A stretch of 64,000 nt of DNA. Origin: Streptococcus cristatus ATCC 51100. GTDB taxonomy: Bacteria > Bacillota > Bacilli > Lactobacillales > Streptococcaceae. Position 1 is the stretch's first letter, and every line of letters starts with the position of its first letter. The notes beneath the pieces were generated by a model. It searched no databases. It saw nothing but the letters and a program-made list of their open reading frames with translations, and had not been told where the DNA came from. Location of the stretch: positions 1,666,001 to 1,730,000 of the forward strand of contig NZ_CP050133.1 in NCBI RefSeq assembly GCF_011612585.1. Reading direction: 5' to 3'. Both the position numbers and the translations under genes were made by a program. Positions 14,901 to 46,007 of this stretch are shown piece after piece.

Positions 14901-17900
14901 TTTTTCTACGATCGCTTTCGTTACGACGTTGATCTTCAGAATACGCGTGAATTTAGCGCTGTCTGTGAAGCTTGGTGCTGCTTCTTTACCATCTTCGTAT
15001 ACGTACTTGATCGTACGGCTCAATTCTTTCACAGCTTCTTGTTGAGCTGACTTGATCTTATCATCTGTCCACTTAGGTCCATCCGGATTCTTAGGATCCA
15101 TTGGATCGTTTGGTTTCGGCGGATTATTCGGATCGAATGGTACTACGCCTTCTTCCAATTGAACAGTAAAGTTTTGGTCCTTGCTTGCATCATCATCAAA
15201 GTTTTGTGGATCCTTGAACTCATCGTTCACAACCTTGTAACCTTGGTTAGTCAATTCTTTCAACTTCGCAAGGTATTGGTCACGGCTAATTGGTTCGCCT
15301 GACTTACCGCCTTCTGAGATCTTCGCCAATTCTTTCTTAGCTTGGTCTACGAAGGTGATGGTTGCTTTTTGATCAGCCTTCTTGTAAGTTACGACTTCAT
15401 CAGCTGGTTTAGCTGAGTCTGCTGTAACCTTCACATCTGCTACGCTTGGTTTGTCCGCTACGTAACCCTTGATGTCTGGTGAAGTTTGTCCCTTGATCAC
15501 GTCATCTTGTGATGTCCATGGGCCTTTTTCTACGATCGCTTTCGTTACGACGTTGATCTTCAGAATACGCGTGAATTTAGCGCTGTCTGTGAAGCTTGGT
15601 GCTGCTTCTTTACCATCTTCGTATACGTACTTGATCGTACGGCTCAATTCTTTCACAGCTTCTTGTTGAGCTGACTTGATCTTATCATCTGTCCACTTAG
15701 GTCCATCCGGATTCTTAGGATCCATTGGATCGTTTGGTCTCGGCGGATTATTCGGATTGAATGGTACTACAACCTGACGCATAGTAACGGTGAAGGTTTG
15801 ATCCTTCTTATCGTCATTATCGAAGGTCTTAGGTCCTGAGAACTCATCGTTCACAACTTCATAGCCCTTGTCTGTCAATTCTTTCAGACGAGCTGCGTAG
15901 TTGGTTGTACCGATTGGCTCACCTGACTTACCGCTTTCAACGATCTTGGTCAATTCCTTGTTACCGTCAGTTTGGTCTACGAAGCTGATAATCGCTTTTT
16001 GACCATCCTTCACGAAGTTGATTGGTGTATCCTTCGTTGGATCACTTGGAATTGGTGGTGGGTTGTAACCCTTGCTTGGATCGCTCGGATCTTTCGGTGT
16101 CAATGGTGTTGTGCCATCTGGACCTACTGGTGTAGTGCCTGGTACATGTGGAATCACTGGAAGATCAGTACCTGGTTTGCTTGGATCTGTTGGATCGTTT
16201 GGATATGGAAGATTTGGAACTTTTGGAAGTCCGTCTGGTACATTTGGTACGTATGAACCAAGTTTGCTGTACTTAACTGTTTCTTCGCTATCCTTATCAT
16301 CAGGAGTCACTGTCTTGGCTGCTACATTGGCCTTATCTGCCACGAATCCAGTTACGACTGGTGTAGCTTCTTGGGCCAATTCTTTCGTAGCTGGTGTCCA
16401 TGGAGTGAAGGTTTCAACGTTCGTTACACGGTTACGTTCACCTGTACGTGTGAAGGCTGCTTCTTGAGTCACTGGAGCTTTCAGAGCTGGACGACCCGCT
16501 GTTTGACCATCTGCGTATTCGTACTTGATGGTACGTGATACTTTCTTGTTGAGCTTAGCTGGGTCTGTAATCTTCTCTGTACCTTGACGAAGAGTAACGG
16601 TGAAGGTTTGATCCTTCTTATCGTCATTATCGAAGGTCTTAGGTCCTGCGAACTCATCCGTTACAACTTCGTAACCCTTGTCTGTCAATTCTTTCAGACG
16701 AGCTGCGTAGTTGGTTGTACCGATTGGCTCACCTGACTTACCGCTTTCAACAACCTTGGTCAATTCCTTGTTACCGTCAGTTTGGTCTACGAAGCTGATA
16801 ATCGCTTTTTGACCATCCTTCACGAAGTTGATTGGTGTATCCTTCGTTGGATCACTTGGAACTGGTGGTGGGTTGTAACCCTTGCTTGGATCGCTCGGAT
16901 CTTTCGGTGTCAATGGTGTTGTGCCATCTGGGCCTACTGGTGTAGTGCCTGGTACACGTGGAATCACTGGAAGATCAGTTCCTGGTTTCGTTGGATCTGT
17001 TGGATCGTTTGGATATGGAAGATTTGGAACTTTTGGAAGTCCATCTGGTACATTTGGTACGTATGAACCAAGTTTCTTGTATTGTACAACTTCTTCGCTA
17101 TCCTTATCATCAGGAGTCACTGTCTTGGCTGCGACATTGGCCTTATCTGCCACGAATCCAGTTACGACTGGTGTAGCTTCTTGAGCCAATTCTTTCGTAG
17201 CTGGTGTCCATGGAGTGAAGGTTTCAACGCCAGTTACACGGTTACGTTCACCTGTACGTGTGAAGGCTGCTTCTTGAGTCACTGGAGCTTTCAGAGCTGG
17301 ACGACCCGCTGTTTGACCATCTGCGTATTCGTACTTGATGGTACGTGATACTTTCTTGTTGAGCTTAGCTGGGTCTGTAATCTTCTCTGTACCTTGACGA
17401 AGAGTAACGGTGAAGGTTTGATCCTTCTTATCGTCATTATCGAAGGTCTTAGGTCCTGCGAACTCATCCGTTACAACTTCGTAACCCTTGTCTGTCAATT
17501 CTTTCAGACGAGCTGCGTAGTTGGTTGTACCGATTGGCTCACCTGACTTACCGCTTTCAACAACCTTGGTCAATTCCTTGTTACCGTCAGTTTGGTCTAC
17601 GAAGCTGATAATCGCTTTTTGACCATCCTTCACGAAGTTGATTGGTGTATCCTTCGTTGGATCACTTGGAACTGGTGGTGGGTTGTAACCCTTGCTTGGA
17701 TCGCTCGGATCTTTCGGTGTCAATGGTGTAGTACCATCTGGGCCTACTGGTGTAGTGCCTGGTACATGTGGAATCACTGGAAGATCAGTGCCTGGTTTCG
17801 TTGGATCTGTTGGATCGTTTGGATATGGAAGGTTTGGTACTTTTGGAAGTCCGTCTGGTACATTTGGTACATATGAACCAAGTTTGCTGTACTTAACTGT

Positions 17901-20900
17901 TTCTTCGCTATCCTTATCATCAGGAGTCACTGTCTTGGCTGCGACATTGGCCTTATCTGCCACGAATCCAGTTACGACTGGTGTAGCTTCTTGAGCCAAT
18001 TCTTTCGTAGCTGGTGTCCATGCACCGTAAGTCTTCTTGTCAGTTACACGGTCGCGCTCACCTGTACGTGTGAAGGCTGCTTCTTGTGTTACAGGAGCTT
18101 TCAGAGCTGGACGGCCTGCTGTTTGACCATCTGCATATTGATACTTGATGGTACGTGTAACCTTCTTGTTGAGTTCTGCTGGATCCTTGATTGCTTCTTT
18201 ACCATGACGAAGAGTAACAACAAATTGTTGATCCTTCTTATCGTCATTATCGAAGGTCTTAGGTCCTGCGAACTCATCCGTTACAACTTCGTAACCCTTG
18301 TCTGTCAATTCTTTCAGACGAGCTGCGTAGTTGGTTGTACCGATTGGCTCACCTGACTTACCGCTTTCAACAACCTTGGTCAATTCCTTGTTACCGTCAG
18401 TTTGGTCTACGAAGCTGATAATCGCTTTTTGACCATCCTTCACGAAGTTGATTGGTGTATCCTTCGTTGGATCACTTGGAACTGGTGGTGGGTTGTAACC
18501 CTTGCTTGGATCGCTCGGATCTTTCGGTGTCAATGGTGTAGTACCATCTGGGCCTACTGGTGTAGTGCCTGGTACATGTGGAATCACTGGAAGATCAGTG
18601 CCTGGTTTCGTTGGATCTGTTGGATCGTTTGGATATGGAAGGTTTGGTACTTTTGGAAGTCCGTCTGGTACATTTGGTACATATGAACCAAGTTTGCTGT
18701 ACTTAACTGTTTCTTCGCTATCCTTATCATCAGGAGTCACTGTCTTGGCTGCGACATTGGCCTTATCTGCCACGAATCCAGTTACGACTGGTGTAGCTTC
18801 TTGAGCCAATTCTTTCGTAGCTGGTGTCCATGCACCGTAAGTCTTCTTGTCAGTTACACGGTCGCGCTCACCTGTACGTGTGAAGGCTGCTTCTTGTGTT
18901 ACAGGAGCTTTCAGAGCTGGACGGCCTGCTGTTTGACCATCTGCATATTGATACTTGATGGTACGTGTAACCTTCTTGTTGAGTTCTGCTGGATCCTTGA
19001 TTGCTTCTTTACCATGACGAAGAGTAACAACAAATTGTTGATCCTTCTTATCGTCATTATCGAAGGTCTTAGGTCCCTTGAACTCATCGTTCACCACTTC
19101 GTAGCCCTTGTCTGTCAATTCTTTCAGACGAGTTGCGTAGTTAGTAGTTCCGATTGGCTCACCTGACTTACCGCTTTCAACGACCTTACCAACTTCCTTG
19201 TTGTTATCGTCTTGGTCTACGAAGGTAATAATCGCTTTTTGACCATCTTTAACATAATTGATTGGTGTATCCTGTGTTGGATCACTTGGAATTGGTGGTG
19301 GGTTGTAACCCTTGCTTGGATCGCTCGGATCTTTCGGTGTCAATGGTGTAGTACCATCTGGACCTACTGGTGTAGTGCCTGGTACATCTGGAACTACTGG
19401 AAGATCAGTTCCTGGTTTCGTTGGATCTGTTGGATCGTTTGGATATGGAAGATTTGGTACTTTTGGAAGTCCGTCTGGTACATTTGGTACGTATGAACCG
19501 AGCTTCTTGTATTGTACAACTTCTTCGCTGTTAGCGTCGCCAGCTTTCACTGTCTTCGCTGCTACATTGGCCTTATCTGCCACAAATCCAGTCACAACTG
19601 GTGTGCCTTCTTGTGCCAATTCTTTTGTAGCTGGTGTCCATGCGCCGAAGGTTTCAACGCCAGTTACACGGTTGCGTTCACCTGTACGTGTGAAGGCTGC
19701 TTCTTGAGTCACAGGAGCTTTCAGAGCTGGACGTCCCGCTGTTTGACCATCTGCGTATTGGTACTTGATCGTACGAGTAACCTTGCTATTCAATTTAGCT
19801 GGGTCTGTAATTGGCTCTTTACCTTGACGAAGAGTAACAACAAATTGTTGATCTTTCTTATCATCGTTATCGAAGGTCTTAGGTCCCTTGAACTCATCGT
19901 TCACTACTTCGTAGCCCTTGTCTGTCAATTCTTTCAGACGGGTTGCGTAGTTAGTTGTTCCGATTGGCTCACCTGACTTACCGCTTTCAACGACCTTACC
20001 AACTTCCTTGTTGTTATCATCTTGGTCTACGAATGTAATAATCGCTTTTTGACCATCTTTAACATAATTGATTGGTGTATCCTGTGTTGGATCACTTGGA
20101 ATTGGTGGTGGGTTGTAACCCTTGCTTGGATCGCTCGGATCTTTCGGTGTCAATGGTGTAGTACCATCTGGACCTACTGGTGTAGTGCCTGGTACATCTG
20201 GAACTACTGGAAGATCAGTTCCTGGTTTCGTTGGATCTGTTGGATCGTTTGGATATGGAAGATTTGGTACTTTTGGAAGTCCGTCTGGTACATTTGGTAC
20301 GTATGAACCGAGCTTCTTGTATTGTACAACTTCTTCGCTGTTAGCGTCGCCAGCTTTCACTGTCTTCGCTGCTACATTGGCCTTATCTGCCACAAATCCA
20401 GTCACAACTGGTATGCCTTCTTGTGCCAATTCTTTTGTAGCTGGTGTCCATGCGCCGAAGGTTTCAACGCCAGTTACACGGTTGCGTTCACCTGTACGTG
20501 TGAAGGCTGCTTCTTGAGTCACAGGAGCTTTCAGAGCTGGACGTCCCGCTGTTTGACCATCTGCGTATTGGTACTTGATCGTACGAGTAACCTTGCTATT
20601 CAATTTAGCTGGGTCTGTAATTGGCTCTTTACCTTGACGAAGAGTAACAACAAATTGTTGATCTTTCTTATCATCGTTATCGAACTTCTGACCATTTGGT
20701 TGCGTGAAACCATCACTTACAAGAGTGTAACCAGCTTGTTTCAATTGTTCGATACGAGATGCTGTTGAGTAAGCTACTGGCTCACCTGACTTACCAGCCA
20801 CAGAATCTGTGTAAAGAGTCTTAGCTTCAACACCATTCTTACCATCTGTTACGTACTTGATAGAACCACGTTGCTCATCCAAGTTATACTTGACAACTTC

Positions 20901-23900
20901 TACTGGATTTTCAGAAGTAGGGTCAACAGTCACACCTGGAACTTTTGGTTTGTCCGGACTGTAGCCTGTGATCGCTGGAGATGTCACTTCTGGAAGATTA
21001 GCATTTGGTTTATCCCAAGCACCAGGAGTTTTCTCACCTGTCACCTTGTTAACAGAAACTGGACGAGTAAACGTTACTGGTTGAGTAACTGTTGGAGGAA
21101 GCGCTGGGCGACCTTCTGTTACACCATCACCATATTGGTATTGAATAGTCCGAGTAACATTTTTCGTTTCTTGTGTTGTTTCAACAACTGGAGTAACGAC
21201 AACTTTCCAAACTTGGTCTTTTGTCTTATCGTTATCAAACTTCTGACCACTTGGTTGAGTGAAGCCATCACTTACAAGTTTGTAACCTGCTTGTTGAAGT
21301 TGAGCGATACGGCTAGCAGTTGAATAAACAACATCTTCACCTGATTTACCTGTAACACCGTCTGTGTAAAGAGTCTTAGCTGGAACACCGTTTTGTCCAT
21401 CTGTTACATACTCAATGATACCACGTTGATCATCTTGGCTGTAGCTTACTACTTCATCTTCGTTAGGAGATGTAGGAGTAACAGTTGAGGCTGGAACACT
21501 TGGTTTGTCTGGAGTGAAACCAGTAACTGCTGGAGAATCAACTTTTGGAAGTTCTTCACTTGGCTTGTTCCATTGTCCAGGAGTTTCAACACCTGTCACC
21601 TTGTTCACAGAAACTGGGCGAGTAAATGTTGTTGTTTGAGTAACTGGACGAGGAAGTGCTGGACGACCTGCGGTCACTCCATCCTTGTATTGGTAACGAA
21701 CGTTACGAGTAACATCTTTTGTTTCTTGTTTTGTCTCAATACGTGGAGTAAGAACAACTTCCCATGTTTGATCTACATTGTTATTACTGTCAAATCTTTG
21801 ACCGCCAGCTTTAGTAAAGCCGTCGCTAACAAGATCATAACCCAACTGTTTAAATTCGTTGATTTTCGCAGTTGTTGTATAGTTTACAGGTGTATCTGAC
21901 TTACCAGTTACGTTGTCTGTGTGAAGGGTCTTAGCTGGAACACCATTTTTACCATCTGTACGGTAAACGATGCTTCCCTTTTGATCTGCAGCTGAATAGC
22001 TTACAATTTCACGCCAACTTGGATCTGTTGGAGCAACAGAGGCTGAATTTACACGTGGTTTGTTTGGTGTAAAGCCTGCTACTTCTGGGCTATCAACCGC
22101 AGCAACATTTTGACGGCTAGGTGTCCAGTTGCCGTATGTCTTCTTACCAGTTACTGGATCTTCTGATACTTGACGAGTAAATTGAACTGTTTGTTCAACT
22201 GGTTGTGGAAGAGCTGGACGATTTCTAGTCACACCATCTTCATATTCGTAAGCGATTGTACGAGTAACGTCTTTTGTTTCAGTTGTTACTTTTGGATTAT
22301 TCTTACGGTATGAAACAATTTCACGCCAGCTTGGATCTGTTGGTGAAACAGTAGCTGAATTTACACGAGTTTTATTTGGTGTAAAGCCTTGAATTGCTGG
22401 TGTATCAACCGCATCTACAGTTCGAGTGCTTGGAGTCCAGTTGCCGTATGTCTTCTTACCAGTTCTTGCATCTTCTGACACTTGTCGTGTAAATCGTACA
22501 TTTTGTTGTACTTCACGTGGAAGGGCTGGACGACCTGAAGTCACACCATCTTCGTATTCATAAGCAATTGTACGAGTAACATCTTTGGTTTCAGTTGTTA
22601 CTTTTGGAGCATTCTTGTCGTAGTAAACCGTTACATCACTTGGAGTAGAATTTGGATTTACTGTAACTCCGGGAACAGTTGCTGTATCTGGAGTATATCC
22701 TGGGACATCTAGAGAATCTACAGGTGCAAAATTCTTAGATGCAGGACTCCATGGACCTGGTCTACCACCTGTCACAGTCCGAGTGAACTCAGCTGTTTGA
22801 GTGTAAGCTGGCGGAAGTGTCGGTCCTGTCACACCTGGTTTATATTTATAATAAATAGTACGAGAGACTGTCTTCTTTTCTGTCTTCGTATCAGTTGCAC
22901 CTCTACGGTAAACGTAGGTTACTGTACCGTTGGTACCCCAGTCAGCCAGAGTTCCTGAAGGTGGCAAGCTACCTCTCTTCATTCCAATGAAACCATAGCC
23001 AGGAATCGTCTTCTGTTCAGTGGTATAAGGCTTAGCCTTGAAGGCACCTTGTGGATAAGTTACTGAGCCTTCAGCGATTTCTCGACCTTGCTCATCTTCA
23101 TAACGTACGTCAACAGAGGCACTTTGATAGAAGTCGAAGCGTTTGATTTGGAACTGTTGCAAGTTCTTGTAGTTACCAGTCGTCGCCGTAACCACCATGG
23201 ACATCAGTTGTTCTGGAGTAGAAACTTTCTTCTTCCATTGCTTAATCCCAAGATTACTTTCGTAAGAGACAGTTAATTCCTTGGTTACACCGTCATACTG
23301 GATAGCAAATCTGTGGAAACGACCATCCAAGTCACTTGAGTCTAGACGTTGAGCACTACCAGCATCTGTCTCAGCCCACCAGCGGTCATACTCACCACCA
23401 GTGAAGATACCTCCACCACGAACTTTTTTATGAGTAGTATTTACCCAGGCACCAAATTGTCCCAGACGAGGGTCTTCCGCCCAACCATATTGGAATGAGT
23501 CCGTATTGCTAGTATCAAAACGGTTCCCTTTCGGTGGTGTGTGGACGTTCCAGAAAGTATCCAGCTTGAAACCATTCGCGTTACGCAAACCACCAATACC
23601 AAGGTTACCACCATCGGCACCTAGGTCTGTTGTATTCCCTGTATGGAAGGCAAAACCAATACCATCGGCACCATAGCGTTCCTGAGTCTTATCACCAAGG
23701 TTAACTCCACCAGTCAGCTTGAAGCTTTGGTTCATATTGATCTTACTCTTCAGACTGAAGTTACCTGTCTTAGAGGTTTCATCTGGAGTAAGGGTCACGA
23801 TACCATCGTATGAATTATAGGTAGCTGAACCATTCAATCTGAAGTAGTCAAGGAAGTTTTCTTTTGTTACAGTTGTCTTCCCTGTTTGTGGGTCAAACGA

Positions 23901-24638
23901 ACGGAAGCCACTTTCTCCTGATTTACGGAAATCAGCGTAACCTTTATTTACTTCGCTTTGAGCAGCTGCTAATGTTGAATTAGCTTCACTTTTGGCTACT
24001 GCATTTGCTGCTTGGCTAGCTGTTGCCAAACTAGCTGCTTGGCTAGCTGCCTTTTCAACTGATACCTTAGCAGGTTCTACAGCAGCAGTTGATTCTGTAG
24101 CTGCTTCAGATGAAACCGCAGTTGACTCTGCAGTAGCTGAAGTAGCTGGGCTAACTCGAGCCTCAGACTGAATTGCAGCGGTTGATTGGCTAGTCGCTAC
24201 TGAAGCTTTAGACACTTGTGAAGTAGCTTCTTTTAAAGCTGCTTCACTTTTTGAAGTAACTTCTGATTTAACAGTTTTTTCTTCCACTTTGCTTGATAGG
24301 TCTTCAGCAGAGGTAGAAGATGCTGTAGATGCTGCACTTGAAACTGCGTTGCTTTCAGCAACAGTTGCTACGGTAGAATTCTTTTCTATGGCCGACTCGG
24401 AGTCAGAATCATTCGCTCCCGAATCTTCTCCTGAATCTGGCACAGAGGTCGTTTTCTCCGTAGAGGTGCTTGAAGAATCCGTCTTAGCTAACGTATCGGC
24501 TGAAACGACATTCCCCCCAAAGAACATGAAAGCTGCGACTGCTACAGAAGCCACGCCCACATTAAACTTACGAACTGAGTATCGAAGCCGTTTCTCAGCA
24601 CTCGCACGGTTTAATCTGCGTCTCGCATTTTTATCCAT
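11973..24638 (-). CDS. Giant LPXTG wall-anchored adhesin with lectin-like head and mucin-binding-type repeats
   Basis: About 4,221 residues. Start: AGGAG lies 8 bases before the ATG at 24638 and only 2-3 bases before the ATG at 24644, so I use the inner one. Order: YSIRK-type signal peptide (YSVRKFNVGVASVAVA, residues 20-35; cleavage after about 47); Ser/Ala/Thr-rich region to about 250; L-type lectin-like domain about 260-505 (YGADGIGFAFHTGN); one MucBP-like module to about 580; divergent repeats (TRTIAYEYEDGVT type) to about 1315; six 270-residue repeats to about 2956; five and a part 208-residue repeats to about 4127; Pro/Glu/Lys wall-spanning segment; LPNTG sorting signal at 4186-4190, hydrophobic stretch and KPRLKEED tail. 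Sortase A substrate. A role as a fibrillar adhesin binding host or bacterial glycans is inferred. Monocistronic. Confidence 0.93.
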   Translation of the reverse strand: MDKNARRRLNRASAEKRLRYSVRKFNVGVASVAVAAFMFFGGNVVSADTLAKTDSSSTSTEKTTSVPDSGEDSGANDSDSESAIEKNSTVATVAESNAVSSAASTASSTSAEDLSSKVEEKTVKSEVTSKSEAALKEATSQVSKASVATSQSTAAIQSEARVSPATSATAESTAVSSEAATESTAAVEPAKVSVEKAASQAASLATASQAANAVAKSEANSTLAAAQSEVNKGYADFRKSGESGFRSFDPQTGKTTVTKENFLDYFRLNGSATYNSYDGIVTLTPDETSKTGNFSLKSKINMNQSFKLTGGVNLGDKTQERYGADGIGFAFHTGNTTDLGADGGNLGIGGLRNANGFKLDTFWNVHTPPKGNRFDTSNTDSFQYGWAEDPRLGQFGAWVNTTHKKVRGGGIFTGGEYDRWWAETDAGSAQRLDSSDLDGRFHRFAIQYDGVTKELTVSYESNLGIKQWKKKVSTPEQLMSMVVTATTGNYKNLQQFQIKRFDFYQSASVDVRYEDEQGREIAEGSVTYPQGAFKAKPYTTEQKTIPGYGFIGMKRGSLPPSGTLADWGTNGTVTYVYRRGATDTKTEKKTVSRTIYYKYKPGVTGPTLPPAYTQTAEFTRTVTGGRPGPWSPASKNFAPVDSLDVPGYTPDTATVPGVTVNPNSTPSDVTVYYDKNAPKVTTETKDVTRTIAYEYEDGVTSGRPALPREVQQNVRFTRQVSEDARTGKKTYGNWTPSTRTVDAVDTPAIQGFTPNKTRVNSATVSPTDPSWREIVSYRKNNPKVTTETKDVTRTIAYEYEDGVTRNRPALPQPVEQTVQFTRQVSEDPVTGKKTYGNWTPSRQNVAAVDSPEVAGFTPNKPRVNSASVAPTDPSWREIVSYSAADQKGSIVYRTDGKNGVPAKTLHTDNVTGKSDTPVNYTTTAKINEFKQLGYDLVSDGFTKAGGQRFDSNNNVDQTWEVVLTPRIETKQETKDVTRNVRYQYKDGVTAGRPALPRPVTQTTTFTRPVSVNKVTGVETPGQWNKPSEELPKVDSPAVTGFTPDKPSVPASTVTPTSPNEDEVVSYSQDDQRGIIEYVTDGQNGVPAKTLYTDGVTGKSGEDVVYSTASRIAQLQQAGYKLVSDGFTQPSGQKFDNDKTKDQVWKVVVTPVVETTQETKNVTRTIQYQYGDGVTEGRPALPPTVTQPVTFTRPVSVNKVTGEKTPGAWDKPNANLPEVTSPAITGYSPDKPKVPGVTVDPTSENPVEVVKYNLDEQRGSIKYVTDGKNGVEAKTLYTDSVAGKSGEPVAYSTASRIEQLKQAGYTLVSDGFTQPNGQKFDNDDKKDQQFVVTLRQGKEPITDPAKLNSKVTRTIKYQYADGQTAGRPALKAPVTQEAAFTRTGERNRVTGVETFGAWTPATKELAQEGIPVVTGFVADKANVAAKTVKAGDANSEEVVQYKKLGSYVPNVPDGLPKVPNLPYPNDPTDPTKPGTDLPVVPDVPGTTPVGPDGTTPLTPKDPSDPSKGYNPPPIPSDPTQDTPINYVKDGQKAIITFVDQDDNNKEVGKVVESGKSGEPIGTTNYATRLKELTDKGYEVVNDEFKGPKTFDNDDKKDQQFVVTLRQGKEPITDPAKLNSKVTRTIKYQYADGQTAGRPALKAPVTQEAAFTRTGERNRVTGVETFGAWTPATKELAQEGTPVVTGFVADKANVAAKTVKAGDANSEEVVQYKKLGSYVPNVPDGLPKVPNLPYPNDPTDPTKPGTDLPVVPDVPGTTPVGPDGTTPLTPKDPSDPSKGYNPPPIPSDPTQDTPINYVKDGQKAIITFVDQDDNNKEVGKVVESGKSGEPIGTTNYATRLKELTDKGYEVVNDEFKGPKTFDNDDKKDQQFVVTLRHGKEAIKDPAELNKKVTRTIKYQYADGQTAGRPALKAPVTQEAAFTRTGERDRVTDKKTYGAWTPATKELAQEATPVVTGFVADKANVAAKTVTPDDKDSEETVKYSKLGSYVPNVPDGLPKVPNLPYPNDPTDPTKPGTDLPVIPHVPGTTPVGPDGTTPLTPKDPSDPSKGYNPPPVPSDPTKDTPINFVKDGQKAIISFVDQTDGNKELTKVVESGKSGEPIGTTNYAARLKELTDKGYEVVTDEFAGPKTFDNDDKKDQQFVVTLRHGKEAIKDPAELNKKVTRTIKYQYADGQTAGRPALKAPVTQEAAFTRTGERDRVTDKKTYGAWTPATKELAQEATPVVTGFVADKANVAAKTVTPDDKDSEETVKYSKLGSYVPNVPDGLPKVPNLPYPNDPTDPTKPGTDLPVIPHVPGTTPVGPDGTTPLTPKDPSDPSKGYNPPPVPSDPTKDTPINFVKDGQKAIISFVDQTDGNKELTKVVESGKSGEPIGTTNYAARLKELTDKGYEVVTDEFAGPKTFDNDDKKDQTFTVTLRQGTEKITDPAKLNKKVSRTIKYEYADGQTAGRPALKAPVTQEAAFTRTGERNRVTGVETFTPWTPATKELAQEATPVVTGFVADKANVAAKTVTPDDKDSEEVVQYKKLGSYVPNVPDGLPKVPNLPYPNDPTDPTKPGTDLPVIPRVPGTTPVGPDGTTPLTPKDPSDPSKGYNPPPVPSDPTKDTPINFVKDGQKAIISFVDQTDGNKELTKVVESGKSGEPIGTTNYAARLKELTDKGYEVVTDEFAGPKTFDNDDKKDQTFTVTLRQGTEKITDPAKLNKKVSRTIKYEYADGQTAGRPALKAPVTQEAAFTRTGERNRVTNVETFTPWTPATKELAQEATPVVTGFVADKANVAAKTVTPDDKDSEETVKYSKLGSYVPNVPDGLPKVPNLPYPNDPTDPSKPGTDLPVIPHVPGTTPVGPDGTTPLTPKDPSDPSKGYNPPPIPSDPTKDTPINFVKDGQKAIISFVDQTDGNKELTKIVESGKSGEPIGTTNYAARLKELTDKGYEVVNDEFSGPKTFDNDDKKDQTFTVTMRQVVVPFNPNNPPRPNDPMDPKNPDGPKWTDDKIKSAQQEAVKELSRTIKYVYEDGKEAAPSFTDSAKFTRILKINVVTKAIVEKGPWTSQDDVIKGQTSPDIKGYVADKPSVADVKVTADSAKPADEVVTYKKADQKATITFVDQAKKELAKISEGGKSGEPISRDQYLAKLKELTNQGYKVVNDEFKDPQNFDDDASKDQNFTVQLEEGVVPFDPNNPPKPNDPMDPKNPDGPKWTDDKIKSAQQEAVKELSRTIKYVYEDGKEAAPSFTDSAKFTRILKINVVTKAIVEKGPWTSQDDVIKGQTSPDIKGYVADKASVADVKVTADSAKPADEVVTYKKADQKATITFVDQAKKELAKISEGGKSGEPISRDQYLAKLKELTNQGYKVVNDEFKDPQNFDDDASKDQNFTVQLEEGVVPFDPNNPPKPNDPMDPKNPDGPKWTDDKIKSAQQEAVKELSRTIKYVYEDGKEAAPSFTDSAKFTRILKINVVTKAIVEKGPWTSQDDVIKGQTSPNIKGYVADKASVADVKVTADSAKPADEVVTYKKADQKATITFVDQAKKELAKISEGGKSGEPISRDQYLAKLKELTNQGYKVVNDEFKDPQNFDDDASKDQNFTVQLEEGVVPFDPNNPPKPNDPMDPKNPDGPKWTDDKIKSAQQEAVKELSRTIKYVYEDGKEAAPSFTDSAKFTRILKINVVTKAIVEKGPWTSQDDVIKGQTSPNIKGYVADKASVADVKVTADSAKPADEVVTYKKADQKATITFVDQAKKELAKISEGGKSGEPISRDQYLAKLKELTNQGYKVVNDEFKDPQNFDDDASKDQNFTVQLEEGVVPFDPNNPPKPNDPMDPKNPDGPKWTDDKIKSAQQEAVKELSRTIKYVYEDGKEAAPSFTDSAKFTRILKINVVTKAIVEKGPWTSQDDVIKGQTSPNIKGYVADKASVADVKVTADSAKPADEVVTYKKADQKATITFVDQAKKELAKISEGGKSGEPISRDQYLAKLKELTNQGYKVVNDEFKDPQNFDDDASKDQNFTVQLEEGVVPFDPNNPPKPNDPMDPKNPDGPKWTDDKIKSAQQEAVKELSRTIKYVYEDGKEAAPSFTDSAKFTRILKINVVTKAIVEKGPWTSQDDVIKGQTSPDIKGYVADKASVADVKVTADSAKPADEVVTYKKVEVPPTPTPTPEPKPTPTPEPKPEPKPEPKPVPPTPAPVPNKQVPNKPVEPKVPGTTALPNTGEKSSSAAVLGLGIVATLAGVSLIKPRLKEED
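12258..15768 (-). repeat. Tandem 624-bp repeat block in the adhesin gene
   Basis: Five complete and one partial copy of a 624-bp (208-codon) unit; corresponding points recur at 12349, 12973, 13597, 14221, 14845 and 15469. Each unit has a Pro/Asp linker (NNPPKPNDPMDPKNPDGP), a RTIKYVYEDGKEAAPSF module and a KATITFVDQAKKELAKISEG module. Copies differ by only scattered substitutions, for example Asp/Asn in GQTSPD/NIKGY. Confidence 0.95.
15770..20686 (-). repeat. Tandem 810-bp repeat block in the adhesin gene
   Basis: Six copies of an 810-bp (270-codon) unit, with register points at 15972, 16782, 17592, 18402, 19212 and 20022. Each contains TRTIKYQYADGQTAGRPAL, a Pro-rich hinge (VPNVPDGLPKVPNLPYPNDP) and KAIITFVDQ. 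Neighbouring copies share variants, so the block looks homogenised by recombination. Confidence 0.95.
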
Positions 24639-24716
24639 GAACATCTCTCCTTTTTAAAATATAGTTCAACCACCTATTACTCAACACCTTAACGCCTGAG
24701 CAGCAAAGTATTTTAT

Positions 24717-29146: not shown

Positions 29147-30502
29147 TTAGTCCTTTCTCAAGAATTGATCCAAGTAATAGTCAAAGTAAGTTTTGCTTCC
29201 TGTGATGACTACTGCACGACCTTCAATACCATAACGTATCTTCTTGGCTTGGGCATCCGTTAAGCTTATTTCAGCTTCAACCTTAAAGAAGTTGCCTTTT
29301 TCCGTTTTCGTCGCATTGTTGTCAATGTTTGAAATTTTAGATTTGAGAACAAATTCTTTATTATTTCCATCCATTGCAGTGAAACGCAGAGTCTCACCTT
29401 TTTTCAGACTAGCAACATCTTTTGAGGTCACATAGGTTGTGATAACGACCTTTTTTTCCTTGGTCAAAACAGGATACAATTGAGCAAGCAACTTCCCTTC
29501 AGGAACCAGATTCGCTCCTGCTGTTTCAGGATTTAGGTGGAGAATACCATCTTCAGTTGCTGTGATCACGCCCTTTTGAGTAATACCACCTTGCACCTTG
29601 AGATTGTTTTCAACTTCTAAAATCTTTTGATTCAAGGCCGTCAATTCTTGACCAACTTTAGTCAACTGCTGAGCTTTCAAAGACTCAAGCTGGCTATCCA
29701 AGCTACCAGAATAGGCTTGCTGAGCACCGGAACCTGCATACTGCACTCGATAGCCCGAAAGAGCTGATTCAAACTGGGAAATCTGATTGTCAATCTGCGA
29801 CAGAACTTGACTCTTTAGCTGACCTTGACTATCAGCAGCAGCTTGCGCCTCATAAGCCTGATAAATGCTATAACCAGCATTAGTCGAAGGGACACTTGTC
29901 CCATTTTGGATAGCATTTCTAAGGGTCTGATAATCTGCTAATTTGGCATTTGTTTCATTGATCAGATTCCCCAGCTCTGCTTGTGAATTGCTAGCTGCTG
30001 AATTTTGAGAAGCAATGGTCGAATTTTGCTGTTCGGTATTACTACGGATACTCGCAGCTTGGTTCTTATAATCATTAAATGCTTGCTCATAGCCGAAGCG
30101 ATCCTCTCCTGAAAACTGGCTAGTCCCCGTCTTCAGACTTTCTTGCAGCAGCTCCAACTGACGTTTTTGCTCCTTCAAGCTTTCTACTTGAGAGGAGAAG
30201 GTTTCTTTTTGAGTATTTTCGCTATCAGACTTATACTGAACTAAAAGATCCCCTTTTTTAACAACCTTGTTTTCCTTCAAATTATTAGTGACAATGGCAT
30301 TGTTACTGGTTGATTGGATGTTAGCCAGAATCTTGCTAGGTTCAATAGAAGCACCTGAAGTAATAGTGATTTCTTTTTTAGCAAAGAGGGAGAATAAGAC
30401 CACAAAAATCAACAAGAAGAAAGTCGGTAAAATCACGCGCACAGAAAAGCTAGAATATCTACGGTTATAAAATTCGGCACTCTCTAAGTAATGTTCTTCC
30501 AT
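29147..30502 (-). CDS. comB: Peptide export accessory protein ComB
   Basis: 451-residue HlyD-family protein that works with the ComA ABC exporter. One N-terminal membrane segment (VILPTFFLLIFVVLFSLFA), a lipoyl-like half (KILANIQSTSNNAIV, VVKKGDLLVQY), a long coiled-coil centre (about 90-290), then the second half-motif (ATEDGILHLNPET). Sequence and length are close to pneumococcal ComB, which helps export the competence pheromone CSP. It starts 14 bp after comA. Paralogous BlpB-type proteins are similar, so the name rests on the ComB-like N-terminus (LESAEFYNRRY). Confidence 0.88.
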   Translation of the reverse strand: MEEHYLESAEFYNRRYSSFSVRVILPTFFLLIFVVLFSLFAKKEITITSGASIEPSKILANIQSTSNNAIVTNNLKENKVVKKGDLLVQYKSDSENTQKETFSSQVESLKEQKRQLELLQESLKTGTSQFSGEDRFGYEQAFNDYKNQAASIRSNTEQQNSTIASQNSAASNSQAELGNLINETNAKLADYQTLRNAIQNGTSVPSTNAGYSIYQAYEAQAAADSQGQLKSQVLSQIDNQISQFESALSGYRVQYAGSGAQQAYSGSLDSQLESLKAQQLTKVGQELTALNQKILEVENNLKVQGGITQKGVITATEDGILHLNPETAGANLVPEGKLLAQLYPVLTKEKKVVITTYVTSKDVASLKKGETLRFTAMDGNNKEFVLKSKISNIDNNATKTEKGNFFKVEAEISLTDAQAKKIRYGIEGRAVVITGSKTYFDYYLDQFLRKD

Positions 30503-30516
30503 CTTCTTTCTCCTTT

Positions 30517-32670
30517 CTAACTATTCACCAGATGAGCATAGAAGCCATCCTGAGCAACCAACTCTTCATGTGTTCCTTGCTCCACGATTTCACCCTTGTC
30601 CAGAACAACCACTTTTTCAGATCGCTCCGCAATGGTCAATCGATGGGCAATGAAAATAATGGTCTTGTCCAACTCCAAAAGGTTGTCAATAATCTTTTTC
30701 TCTGTCAAGATATCCAGATTGCTGGTCGCCTCATCAAGGATCAAAACAGGAGCATCTGTCAAAAGAGCCCGAGCCAAGGCCAAGCGCTGACGCTGACCAC
30801 CTGAAATTCCTGAACCATCCGATGTCAATTCTGTTTGGTAATTCAAAGGCATCCGTTCAATATCTTCACGAATTTCTGCAATTTCCAACGCCCGAATGAT
30901 TTCTTTCTGAGTCGTTCCGGGCTTGGCACCTAGGAGAACATTCTCCAAGATGGTACCATTAAAAACATAAGGCTGTTGCGGCAAGTAATTGATATGACGG
31001 CGCAAGACATGCTTGTCAATCTGATTGAGGTTGATATTATTAACCAGAATTTCTCCCTCGTTTGGATCGTAAAAGTTCACGATCATCTTGGCAAGAGTCG
31101 TCTTTCCAGAACCAGAAATTCCTACAAAGGCCACCTTGCTGCCTCTTTCAATGGTCAAATTAATATCCGACAGAACGTTTCGTCCATAGCCATACTTGTA
31201 GCTGACATTTCTCAACTCAATGTCGCCCTTGGTCATGCTCAAATCACGGATCGCTTTTTTATCCATAAATTCAGAGTCAACCAGATAAACCTCGTTCAAG
31301 CGATTATTGGCAACTTGTGCAGTCTGAAGCTTGGTCTGTAAATTGATAATATTTTCCAGCGGATTTGTGAAATAAACCAACAAAGTATTATAAGTAATCA
31401 ACTGCCCCAAGGTCATTTTATTGTCCATTACCAAAAGAGCTCCCATCCAAAGGATTGCAACATTCAGCAAGAGCTGAGCCGTCTTCTTCAAACCGATTTG
31501 GATATTCTCCATTCGACTATAAGTAAATGATTTCTTTAGATAGTCAACAAATTCTCTATCAATTTTTTGATAGCGGAAATCTTCACTTGTCAAGGATTTG
31601 ATCGTCTCAATACCATTGATATCTTCGATAATGGAAGAAGACAGGATGGCATTGGATTCCATCGTATCGCGATTCATTTTTTCAAATGGCTTCATGAAGG
31701 CAAAAATCACGACGATATAGATTGGCAGCGAGAGCAAACTGATAAAGAACAAATAGAAGTTTTGTGAGAACAAAACAATTGCCATAACGACAACGATAGA
31801 GACATCCAAAAAGATGGACAGAATGGTGCTGGCCAAGGCATCAATGATACTATTGGCATCGTTGAAGCGCGATACGATTTCCCCTGTCCTTCTCGTCGCA
31901 AAAAAAGACATCGGTAGATGAAAGACATGCTTAATATAGGACAAAATCACATCAATCGAAAGGCGTTGGCCTAAAATAAGAAGCAGATAGCTCTGAGCAT
32001 AAGTTAGGACCTGTTGCAAAATGTAGACAACTATTAGACCGAGAGAAATAATTCCTAAGGTATTCCTCATCTGATTCGGTACGTAAGTATCAATAATCCC
32101 CTGCATGTAGTAAGAGCCCACGATATTGATAATCGTCACCAGCATCGTTGCAATAACGATATTGGCAATCAGTCCCTTTTGTTTCATTAAAATCGGAACA
32201 AAAGACCAGAGACCGTTTTTCTTTTCCTTGTGTGGTCTATATTCTGGCGCTGGGGCGATGAAAATAGAGACACCTGTCCACTCTTGCGCAAACTGTTCCT
32301 TAGAAAGCTTGGTCATTTTAACAGCCGGATCTGGATCCGCAATATAAACCGAATGTTTATCGTGCCCAGTCACAACATAATAGTGAAGCAATTTCTTGTC
32401 TTTGATAACATGGGCGATAAAAGGATAAACGATGCCCTTCATGTCAAATAAAGACATATCCGCTTTAAAGGCTCGTGTTTCAAAACCTAACTCTTCCGAA
32501 ACCTTCACTAGCCCAAAAGCAGTTGTTCCTCTTAAAGTTGTCTTGGCCATTTCACGCAAACTAGCCAAAGAATAATAGGAACCATAATAGCCATATATCA
32601 TGGCCAGCGCTGCTACACCACAATCTCTCGCGTCAACTTGAGCCCTATAATGACGCTTTGTAAATCTCAT
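30517..32670 (-). CDS. comA: Peptide-cleaving ABC exporter ComA
   Basis: Removes double-glycine leaders and exports the mature peptide. The start is the ATG at 32670 (AGGAG 5-6 bases upstream), giving 717 residues, the pneumococcal ComA length; an ORF extension to 32727 has no ribosome-binding site. Order: C39 peptidase (Cys17 in DARDCGVAAL, His in YYVVTGH, Asp in YIADPDP), six membrane segments (about 160-440), ATPase with Walker A GISGSGKTT, signature ISGGQRQRLALAR, Walker B LILDEATSNLD and H-loop FIAHRL. It lies downstream of two double-glycine peptide genes that are plausible cargo. It probably also exports the competence pheromone, whose gene is not in the window. Confidence 0.9.
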   Translation of the reverse strand: MRFTKRHYRAQVDARDCGVAALAMIYGYYGSYYSLASLREMAKTTLRGTTAFGLVKVSEELGFETRAFKADMSLFDMKGIVYPFIAHVIKDKKLLHYYVVTGHDKHSVYIADPDPAVKMTKLSKEQFAQEWTGVSIFIAPAPEYRPHKEKKNGLWSFVPILMKQKGLIANIVIATMLVTIINIVGSYYMQGIIDTYVPNQMRNTLGIISLGLIVVYILQQVLTYAQSYLLLILGQRLSIDVILSYIKHVFHLPMSFFATRRTGEIVSRFNDANSIIDALASTILSIFLDVSIVVVMAIVLFSQNFYLFFISLLSLPIYIVVIFAFMKPFEKMNRDTMESNAILSSSIIEDINGIETIKSLTSEDFRYQKIDREFVDYLKKSFTYSRMENIQIGLKKTAQLLLNVAILWMGALLVMDNKMTLGQLITYNTLLVYFTNPLENIINLQTKLQTAQVANNRLNEVYLVDSEFMDKKAIRDLSMTKGDIELRNVSYKYGYGRNVLSDINLTIERGSKVAFVGISGSGKTTLAKMIVNFYDPNEGEILVNNINLNQIDKHVLRRHINYLPQQPYVFNGTILENVLLGAKPGTTQKEIIRALEIAEIREDIERMPLNYQTELTSDGSGISGGQRQRLALARALLTDAPVLILDEATSNLDILTEKKIIDNLLELDKTIIFIAHRLTIAERSEKVVVLDKGEIVEQGTHEELVAQDGFYAHLVNS

Positions 32671-32778: not shown

Positions 32779-32967
32779 CTTTATCCATAGCGGTTCTCTC
32801 TAATAAAAACAAGTATAAATTAGGGAAAGAACTTTCATAACAAGCAAAAAATAGATATCTCTATCATACACTAATGTGGCGTATTTTTCCAATGGTATCA
32901 GTCGTTTTACTCTATATAAGCACAAAATTACTTAAAAAACAGACATAATGTAACTTTTACACTAAAA

Positions 32968-33001
32968 AGCCTCTTGTCCAAATCAAGACGAACAAGAGGC
33001 T
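32968..33001 (-). terminator. Terminator of the double-glycine peptide operon
   Basis: AGCCTCTTGT (32968-32977) pairs with ACAAGAGGCT (32992-33001). On the minus strand the stem is followed by TTTTTAG. It sits 20 bp past the second peptide gene. Confidence 0.85.
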
Positions 33002-33021
33002 CTATGTCGAAACAAAAAATA

Positions 33022-33282
33022 TTAGTTAAAAACGTCTGGGCTTGCAGCACCACCGTTGTTAGCGCCACCACGATTGCTAGAGCCAGAACGTGATCCAAAT
33101 CTAGAACGAATACGACCATATGCACGAATAGCAAGTCCACGTACAGTGCGACCAACTTCACGACCGATATCAAATACGGCACGTACAAGGTCACCACCGA
33201 CCCATCCACCTTCTACTTCAACCAATTCAGCTTCAGTAAGAGGCATAAATTTTTGATCTAATGATTTAAAATCTTTGTTCAT
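33022..33282 (-). CDS. Double-glycine leader peptide, Arg-rich (putative bacteriocin or signal)
   Basis: 86 residues. AAGGTGA sits 6 bases before the ATG at 33282; an in-frame GTG at 33291 overlaps no useful ribosome-binding site. The leader ends PLTEAELVEVEGG (26 residues), a classical ComA/BlpA-type cleavage site. The predicted mature 60-mer starts WVGGDLVRAVFDIGREVGR. It has 10 Arg, no Lys and no Cys, and ends in a Gly/Ser/Asn-rich tail. An amphipathic Arg helix plus a flexible tail is unlike the usual Gly-zipper class IIb bacteriocins. Second gene after the ComR-box promoter, 206 bp from the first peptide start. No immunity gene is recognised beside it. Confidence 0.75.
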   Translation of the reverse strand: MNKDFKSLDQKFMPLTEAELVEVEGGWVGGDLVRAVFDIGREVGRTVRGLAIRAYGRIRSRFGSRSGSSNRGGANNGGAASPDVFN

Positions 33283-33314: not shown

Positions 33315-33488
33315 TTAGCTGAAAAGTCCTACTAAGAAGCCTGAAACCAATGAGCCACCCAAAATAGCCAATGATACTGTGAAAATGTCAACAGGGATAC
33401 CATAGAATGCCCATCCACCGTCGATCATCATCATTTCTTCTTCAGTCAACGCAGCAAATTGGTTGTCCATCATAGCAAAGTTTTCCAT
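33315..33488 (-). CDS. Double-glycine leader peptide, hydrophobic (putative bacteriocin)
   Basis: 57 residues from the ATG at 33488, preceded by AAAAGGAG; the longer in-frame ORF lacks a ribosome-binding site. The leader is 25 residues ending LTEEEMMMIDGG. The 32-residue mature part starts WAFYGIPVD and continues with a strongly hydrophobic, glycine-containing stretch (LAILGGSLVSGFLVGLFS) that could span a membrane and resembles pore-forming peptides. Both mature peptides begin with Trp directly after Gly-Gly, suggesting they are a pair. First gene of the two-peptide operon apart from an 18-codon leader ORF. Confidence 0.8.
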   Translation of the reverse strand: MENFAMMDNQFAALTEEEMMMIDGGWAFYGIPVDIFTVSLAILGGSLVSGFLVGLFS

Positions 33489-33576: not shown

Positions 33577-33624
33577 ATTATACAACAACCATATGTGGTT
33601 CAACATGACATTGATGTCATGTTG
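33577..33624 (-). promoter_or_regulatory. ComR-box-type palindrome and -10 of the peptide operon
   Basis: A perfect palindrome with 11-bp arms, CAACATGACAT (33601-33611) and ATGTCATGTTG (33614-33624), has a 2-base centre. It fits the ECom/ComR consensus AACANGACA, N4, TGTCNTGTT at every fixed position (33602-33623). On the minus strand a perfect TATAAT (33582-33577) follows exactly 19 bp after the box, and there is no -35. This is the architecture of ComR-activated sigX and comS promoters. The regulator is not encoded in this window. Confidence 0.75.
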
Positions 33625-33697
33625 AGAAGAAAAATGTGTAATTTTTTTATAATATTTGAAATATCCTCTTTTTCCCATTTTCCCTAGTTTCATTTTG

Positions 33698-44440: not shown

Positions 44441-45979
44441 CAGATTGAAGACAAACATTCCAAATGGTGTTTGTCTTTTTCTGTTTGTCAGGCTAATATT
44501 TCATCTTTTGATAGAATAATGGTCATTTGAACAAAATAAAAAGGCTTGTCCACCCTCATTTTTACTAGTTTTTTAAGATTCAAACACGCCAAAGTAAGCC
44601 CAACCTTATCTTCCATTTTGGACTTTCCTTTCTCTCTGGTGTATCTCAAGTTATGATATTCCTTAGCAGTCCCAAAGAGTCGCTCAATTGTTTCCTTGCG
44701 CTTCTTATAAAGCTCCTTCATCCCTCTTTTGTGGCGAATCTCTTCACAAAATTCAAGGTCATCTTTCCATACATGTCTTGTGATGACTTTCTGCTGATTC
44801 TGGCTCTGGGTACAAACTGATGATAGGGGACAGGCGACACATACTTTTGGATCACTCTTATACTCACGGTAGCCTGCTCGGGTCGTCGTGCGATAGGTTA
44901 ACACTTGGTTCTCTGGGCAGAGGTAACAGTCATAGAAGGCATCATAAACAAAATCACCGGGCCTTAAGTTCCCTTTTACACCCTTGGGGCGGGTATAGGG
45001 AAAGACAGGGATGATGTTTCGCTCTAATAAATAATGAGCAATAGCTGGGGTCTTATAGCCTGAGTCCGCAATAATGTAGCGTGGGGAGAAAGCTTCTATC
45101 TTTGAAAAAAGGGCAGGGAAAGCCTGACTATCGTGTACATTTCCTGCTTCAACACTATAAGCTAGTGCCCAACCATGCTTGTCACAAGCTACCTGGGCAG
45201 AATAGGCAAATACTTCCTTGTGTTGACCCTTGTGGAACCAGCCACTCTCTGGGTCTGTCCTTGAGATTTTCTTTTCTTTAGCCTCGCTTTCTTTTGCGGG
45301 CTTTAAGGACTTTTTTTCATGTTTCCTCCTATCTAAATCAATCTCAACTTCCAATTGCTCACTCATAAATTTAGCTTGTTGGGCAACCATTTTCTTACGA
45401 TATTTGTGACTGTTAGCTGCCGCTTTGATGTGAGTACCATCCACAAATAGTTCCGAAGGATCAATTAAGCCAGCACATAAAGCTTGATGGAGCACTCGCG
45501 AAAATATCTCTGAAATTAATTCTTTATCTTGAAAACGACGACTGTAATTCTTTCCATAGGTGGTAAAATGAGGGACCTTGTCATCCAAGCTTAGTCCAAG
45601 AAACCAACGATAAGCTACATTTACTTCAATATCTTTAATGGTTTGGCGCATGGAGCGAATGCCATAAAAACATTGAATCAAAGGGATTTTGACTAACATG
45701 ACAGGATCGAGACTAGGACGACCATTATCTGGACTATAGGTGTCTTCTACCAAGTCATAGATAAAATCAAAATCAAGCTTTGAATCCACTTGGCGAAGAA
45801 AGTGATCCTCTGGGACCAATTCGTCAATCGTATAGAAGCCATATTGGCAGCGATGATAATCAGGTTTTTCTTTGTGAAACATAGAGAATACCTCACAATT
45901 CTTCTCACCTCTATTATACGACTTTACAAAAAGAAAAGCCCTTAGAAAAGTGTCTTCTAAGGACTTTGTCTTCAATCTG
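44441..45979. mobile_element. IS1182-family insertion sequence
   Basis: 1,539 bp bounded by 15-bp perfect terminal inverted repeats (CAGATTGAAGACAAA at 44441-44455 and its complement at 45965-45979). It carries one intact transposase gene on the minus strand. Flanked by a 28-bp direct repeat, read as the target duplication. Inserted between convergent thrE- and mvaA-type genes. Confidence 0.9.
44488..45882 (-). CDS. IS1182-family transposase
   Basis: 464 residues from the ATG at 45882 (AGGT upstream). The N-terminal DUF772-like region reads CQYGFYTIDELVPEDHFLRQ, then GRPSLDPVMLVKIPLIQCF. DDE core positions include LFVDGTHIKAAANSHK, IIADSGYKTPAIAHYLL, and ERLFGTAKEYHNLRYT. A cysteine cluster (CYLCPENQ, CVACPLSSVC) is typical of the family. 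The frame runs open back to 46005 through the right flanking palindrome, but those residues are chance extension. Length is normal and no frameshift is seen, so it may be active. Confidence 0.92.
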   Translation of the reverse strand: MFHKEKPDYHRCQYGFYTIDELVPEDHFLRQVDSKLDFDFIYDLVEDTYSPDNGRPSLDPVMLVKIPLIQCFYGIRSMRQTIKDIEVNVAYRWFLGLSLDDKVPHFTTYGKNYSRRFQDKELISEIFSRVLHQALCAGLIDPSELFVDGTHIKAAANSHKYRKKMVAQQAKFMSEQLEVEIDLDRRKHEKKSLKPAKESEAKEKKISRTDPESGWFHKGQHKEVFAYSAQVACDKHGWALAYSVEAGNVHDSQAFPALFSKIEAFSPRYIIADSGYKTPAIAHYLLERNIIPVFPYTRPKGVKGNLRPGDFVYDAFYDCYLCPENQVLTYRTTTRAGYREYKSDPKVCVACPLSSVCTQSQNQQKVITRHVWKDDLEFCEEIRHKRGMKELYKKRKETIERLFGTAKEYHNLRYTREKGKSKMEDKVGLTLACLNLKKLVKMRVDKPFYFVQMTIILSKDEILA

Positions 45980-46007
45980 AAATGAGTCAATACATATTGA
46001 CTCATTT
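45980..46007. repeat. 28-bp palindromic direct repeat, right of the IS
   Basis: Identical copy of 44413-44440 in direct orientation. It contains the mvaA stop (TGA at 46004-46002) and can fold as its terminator. Confidence 0.9.

Follow-up and report, generated by a model that had tools for sequence, protein, structure and literature searches.

In the Streptococcus cristatus sequence analysed here (64,000 nucleotides, hereafter the window), the promoter of two double-glycine peptide genes carries a palindrome that, by its sequence, is a ComR-class operator, and the only protein of this genome in which we found the DNA-reading motif of ComR is a stand-alone ComR DNA-binding domain (the orphan domain). 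It appears moderately probable that the orphan domain binds this box and switches on this promoter only, with no pheromone being sensed. The wider reading, in which a ComR-family receptor has naturally lost everything but its DNA-binding domain and now serves, blind to any signal, as the dedicated activator of one bacteriocin-like promoter in a ComCDE species, with an inverted repeat in the promoter spacer possibly serving as a second operator that supplies the missing control, seems to us evenly poised. Table 1 lists the features.

Table 1. Features of the peptide locus and the orphan domain (window positions unless stated otherwise)
Feature	Position	Strand	Basis or remark
ComR-type box AACATGACATTGATGTCATGTT	33602-33623	-	perfect palindrome; nine-promoter alignment and pattern search
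Inverted repeat AACCA-CATA-TGGTT	33587-33600	-	in the spacer between box and -10, replacing the usual T-tract; possible second operator
TATAAT (-10) of the minus-strand unit	33577-33582	-	distance to the box exactly 19 bp; -35 missing
Second, weaker sigma-70-like match TTGAAA-17-TATATT (10/12)	33557-33529	-	promoter scan; downstream of the box promoter and upstream of peptide 1
Double-glycine peptide 1, 57 aa, class IIb bacteriocin-like	33315-33488	-	TIGR03949 25.4 bits (cut-off 21.5); PF10439 29.8 bits (cut-off 27.1)
Double-glycine peptide 2, 86 aa, Arg-rich after GG	33022-33282	-	PF10439, leader only, 14.3 bits, below cut-off
Strong hairpin with T run behind it, probably terminating the peptide unit	32961-33007	-	-24.3 kcal/mol, z -4.46
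comA-like peptidase-containing ABC transporter	30517-32670	-	TIGR01193 1132.8 bits; Peptidase_C39
comB-like accessory protein	29147-30502	-	TIGR01000 525.2 bits
Stand-alone ComR DNA-binding domain, 74 aa	G000:C1:613183-613404, outside the window		between an nnrD-like gene and xseA

The box combines a GACA-N4-TGTC core with outer AACA and TGTT arms and matches the published type of pattern at 16/16 fixed positions, as the first-pass annotation had claimed. That annotation was also right that the palindrome is perfect, but its arms are 12 nt long rather than 11 (33600-33611 and 33614-33625, 100% complementary, with 2 nt between them). ComR-box promoters have 19–20 bp between box and -10 and lack a -35, and inspection of the hexamers upstream of TATAAT bears out both the exact 19-bp distance and the missing -35 of the earlier description: GTTGAA, TGTTGA and ATGTTG stand at spacings of 16, 17 and 18 bp, and the only weakly -35-like hexamer is TTGAAC at the short spacing of 15 bp. 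Assuming that transcription starts 7 nt after TATAAT, the box is centred at about -42.5, which, without a -35, is the geometry of a class II activator, so that activation by the amount of protein is favoured. The scan that returned the second promoter-like sequence found 9 matches compared to 4.3 in shuffles; in the alignment of nine orthologous promoters, its TATATT is invariant and its -35-like hexamer is variable.

The box of the peptide promoter is the sole occurrence with 0 mismatches in the 2,031,205-bp genome; the search for other copies that the first-pass annotation had proposed thus yielded no second exact one. Three other places have 1–2 mismatches, and we rejected them as comX or comS promoters because all three lie inside open frames; a relaxed search (up to 3 mismatches in 18 fixed core positions) added just one further place, at 772160. 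From base composition, 0.0007 exact sites are expected per genome, and 8 × 10−7 with TATAAT at exactly 19 bp. Of 284 genomes of the genus, 75 contain a box followed by N19 and TATAAT (up to 1 mismatch), with 113 places in all, compared to 0 for the reversed control. Where the surrounding genes were covered (30 places), the box mostly lies ahead of comX-like genes or directly behind comR-like ones, which identifies its type. In many other genomes of the genus, a box identical in sequence pattern and spacing stands in front of comX or of a comS that adjoins comR, in agreement with the earlier assignment to the ComR class. Among the nine aligned promoters, the arms vary at 0/20 positions, compared to 13/93 upstream and 14/91 downstream, whereas both centre bases vary and the spacer varies at 6/19 positions. 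At the flanking rate (approximately 15%), the absence of arm changes has a chance of approximately 0.04, so that conservation alone lends modest support. The DNA of the locus gave no match when searched against plasmids.

The T-rich spacer of ComR-box promoters is missing from this promoter. TTTT is found near the box in 85 of the 104 places outside the clade and in 0 of the 9 inside it; conversely, a perfect 5-4-5 inverted repeat occurs in the spacer of 8 of the 9 places inside the clade vs. 1 of the 104 outside. The repeat takes the form AACCC/GGGTT or AACCA/TGGTT, with paired A/T to C/G changes in the arms between strains, and is broken in genome G241. Because both forms keep pairing, these few sequences weakly hint that the repeat may be a second operator.

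Orthologues of peptide 1 (88–100% identity) are present in 12 of the 284 genus genomes, and the box promoter in 9 of these 12 (G000, which is the genome under study, G019–G025 and G241); 63 further genomes have peptide 1 matches at E up to 0.001. The named relatives at the locus (10 loci) comprise six S. cristatus strains, Streptococcus sp. Marseille-P6264 and three S. oralis strains. Two of the S. oralis copies of the operon have a readable promoter, which carries TTGACA-17-TATAAT instead of the box, and the third starts too near the contig end for its promoter to be read; no orthologue of the orphan domain was found in the S. oralis genomes with the box-less copies. Given that these copies have a -35 there, the box sits at the place of the -35, as expected for an activator. 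In S. oralis (L159, L160 and L154), the contigs that carry the peptide pair and comAB are approximately 4–5 kb long, and in one case a transposase-like ORF adjoins these genes, which suggests a mobile or repeated context.

Peptide 1 combines a GG leader with a family match of the class IIb double-glycine bacteriocins; the relatives of peptide 2 are few and restricted (15 matches), and we recognised no cognate immunity gene between peptide 2 and comA in the ORF list. Small peptides with a GG leader also occur near comAB in other mitis-group genomes, including those that we take to be of the BlpU type; these and similar peptides are 34–59% identical to peptide 1 over all or part of its length. 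The first-pass annotation had the box drive two double-glycine peptides next to ComAB. The peptides do adjoin the box, but ComAB is linked to it by neighbourhood only, as the hairpin intervenes and comA is preceded by a promoter-like sequence of its own (TTGACA-16-TAGTAT). On account of the hairpin, although the consensus terminator scan does not list it, we rejected a single operon of peptides and comAB, and from the sequence the peptide pair is probably a transcription unit separate from comAB. ComA is the sole C39-peptidase match found in the genome and, on that ground, the likely exporter of the pair; in the proposed reading, the peptides would be bacteriocins exported by the ComAB of this locus. 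Elsewhere in the window (11973-24644, minus strand), an ORF of 4223 aa resembles a surface protein, with long repeats that are nearly identical and an LPNTG-like motif at its end.

A full-length ComR query run against this genome (E up to 10) retrieved the orphan domain (51% identity over 61 residues) and, weakly, an Rgg-like protein (L018), and no other place; no full-length ComR was found. The RQLxRxE recognition-helix motif is present in the orphan domain alone among 20 loci of this genome (19 HTH_3 matches and the Rgg). Its R36, Q37 and R40, which are invariant with 10 ComR-like domains, correspond to R33, Q34 and R37 of ComR; as described in the paratox study, R33 and R37 recognise DNA, Q34 holds the domain against the TPR, and K49, a position where the orphan domain has T, is called invariable in ComR (PMC8383118). 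All five PDB sequence matches of the orphan domain are ComR, and its model (pLDDT 91.1, pTM 0.80, five helices) matches the fold of ComR at ranks 1–10, followed by stand-alone C proteins of restriction-modification systems. It thus has the N-terminal HTH of ComR with the DNA-reading residues and lacks the pheromone-binding TPR domain, the protein ending at 73–74 aa in 8 of 8 genomes. There is also no pheromone gene under a ComR box beside it, the sole exact box being 1.09 Mb away. In the eight genomes, 19 of 73 codons vary synonymously only, compared to 4 that vary nonsynonymously (pS up to 0.38, pN up to 0.023), and this strong purifying selection indicates that the orphan domain is being kept as a protein rather than decaying as a fragment.

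The earlier suggestion that a ComR- or Rgg-like regulator elsewhere may control the pair is therefore upheld in that the genome-wide comR/rgg search it called for found homologues, namely the orphan domain and one Rgg over the family cut-off, and amended in that the ComR-type protein is a 74-aa domain rather than full-length. The second quorum signal proposed along with it is not supported, because the only protein with the ComR DNA-reading motif lacks the TPR sensor. Of three other short frames (in G068, G037 and G217), the one assessed, L147 in G068, was rejected as a second stand-alone domain because it is a full-length ComR-like gene that has been broken. A protein search whose reach is limited to similar-length proteins sharing 5-residue words gave 94 matches, 91 at at least 93% identity and three at 60–89%. 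Upstream of the nnrD-like gene, L164 and L182 contain repeats of approximately 50–220 bp that match within and between strains.

Among the matches listed, ordered by score, orthologues of the orphan domain (96–100% identity) occur in 8 of the 284 genomes (G000, G019–G024 and G241), so that all but one of the 9 box genomes have one and none of the 275 others does; the next best, also among the matches listed, are 54% identical and belong to frames as long as a complete ComR. All of this co-occurrence falls within one clade and hence represents few independent events. The exception is G025 (strain S22), in which the box is intact and the orphan gene is missing, the flanking matches being 128 bp apart vs. 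504 bp in the genome under study; searches with full-length ComR and with the orphan domain found no other ComR-type protein there. A recent import of the box locus into G025 was rejected, as the locus is evenly 91–94% identical to the others. Full-length ComR-like proteins (31–35% identity) are present in 5 of the 9 box genomes and were not found in G000, G022, G024 and G025. The Rgg-like protein L018 (G000:C1:364581-365468) occurs in 7 of the 9, including G025, and is absent from G019 and G021. No single candidate regulator is thus present in all nine box genomes, and the orphan domain fits best. At L018:2420-2640, short tandem repeats (units with CTCGGCTGGCCACTTTTCCTATAG) lie on the far side of a small ORF that looks secreted and adjoins the Rgg-like gene.

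In the mechanism that we propose, two copies of the orphan domain would bind the two half-sites at the place of the missing -35 and, once bound, would recruit RNA polymerase as a class II activator, with an output that would follow the amount of orphan protein and not a pheromone. In ComR, according to two studies, the TPR holds the DNA-binding domain until the pheromone binds, upon which the protein dimerises (PMC5131902, PMC8383118); without the TPR clamp, the orphan domain should be free to bind. We infer binding to this box, dimerisation on DNA and activation rather than repression by the orphan protein. Several points weigh against this explanation: the box is intact in S22, which has no orphan gene; full-length ComR-like proteins coexist with the box in 5 of the 9 genomes; the residue at the K49 position is, going by the alignment, T; the T-rich spacer is missing; the second promoter-like sequence could give basal expression; and an isolated domain may dimerise poorly, as the TPR aids dimerisation in ComR.

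If the orphan domain binds the box, it might instead repress, as an operator-blocking or dominant-negative remnant that either keeps the peptides off or, where full-length ComR-like proteins are present, blocks these, for which the five box genomes with such proteins offer possible competitors. Sensorless HTH proteins are often repressors, and the stand-alone C proteins, which are the next fold neighbours, act in both ways, activating at low and repressing at high levels; the promoter that is read could then be the second, downstream one. We nevertheless consider repression unlikely, since the box lies at activator distance in place of a -35, copies without box or domain carry a consensus -35, and the genome under study has, as far as our searches found, no full-length ComR to compete with. 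That the box is read by a different regulator with a real peptide signal, be it L018 or a MutR/Rgg-type protein at 750895, finds some support in G025, where L018 is present and the orphan domain is not, and in the one TIGR01716 Rgg of the genome under study. We give this little credence, however, given that L018 is missing from two box genomes, that its relatives at 36–48% identity occur in box-less genomes, and that neither L018, whose recognition-helix region reads SPTTLSKIE, nor the 750895 locus has the RQLxRxE motif.

Slightly less credible again is that the box is a relic of a lost full-length ComR-type regulator, with the promoter working by its -10 alone or transcription starting from the second promoter-like sequence. 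The persistence of the box in G025, in which no ComR-type protein was found, is consistent with such a relic, as is the modest significance of the arm invariance; variation of the centre and spacer around invariant arms, and selection to keep the DNA-binding domain, argue against it. Activation by the orphan domain remains the reading that we prefer.

Control of bacteriocins by the ComR class is already known from S. salivarius, where ComR, ScuR and SarF control bacteriocin promoters (PMC6703854, PMC12998947). As described there, a ComR-box at a fixed distance from the -10 directly precedes the bacteriocin genes, uncoupled from comX, as it is here; however, S. salivarius uses RRNPP regulators of full length, each with a TPR sensor and a peptide, compared to a sensorless domain and no full-length ComR found here, and the spacer is T-rich (PMC6703854), compared to an inverted repeat. 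The comS and comX promoters of ComRS species share the same palindrome, the 19 bp to the -10 and the lack of a -35 (PMC4072589), whereas here the target is a peptide pair, there is no adjoining comR, and the T-tract is missing. The isolated ComR domain of the paratox work (7n10, 7n1n; PMC8383118), which has approximately 66–68 residues and folds by itself, is 38–40% identical to the orphan domain in the fold alignment, but it is a laboratory construct or a proteolysis product of full-length ComR, whereas the orphan domain is a natural gene. The C proteins C.BclI, C.AhdI and C.Esp1396I are likewise stand-alone HTH proteins of approximately 75–80 aa with the same fold, a size class into which the orphan domain falls (by fold only), and they provide a model for dose regulation by a sensorless HTH; identity is 21–26%, and the orphan domain is flanked by the nnrD-like gene and xseA, with no linked restriction-modification genes at its flanks.

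In the open PMC literature, we found no report of a natural stand-alone ComR DNA-binding domain, nor of one paired with a promoter of this type in a species that has ComCDE. Work on ComR has treated it as a switch of two domains, with the DNA-binding domain clamped by the TPR for as long as no pheromone is bound. If the proposed mechanism is correct, a natural gene under selection, with a single perfect target box in its genome, would reveal what the isolated domain is able to do in a cell and whether the evolution of RRNPP regulators can lead to sensorless ones, and a ComCDE species would have a ComR-type input to peptide production. The use of ComCDE expected by the first-pass annotation agrees with a ComC/ComD/ComE-type locus near the origin, the names resting on position, sequence features and a LytTR match. 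We also observed a second ComC/ComD/ComE-type locus; at L183:711-3155, a second histidine-kinase/LytTR-regulator locus includes an additional LytTR protein of small size. A transposase-like ORF at window positions 44488-46005 (minus strand) is nearly identical to another at L181:4591-6078, the latter beside the ComE-type gene.
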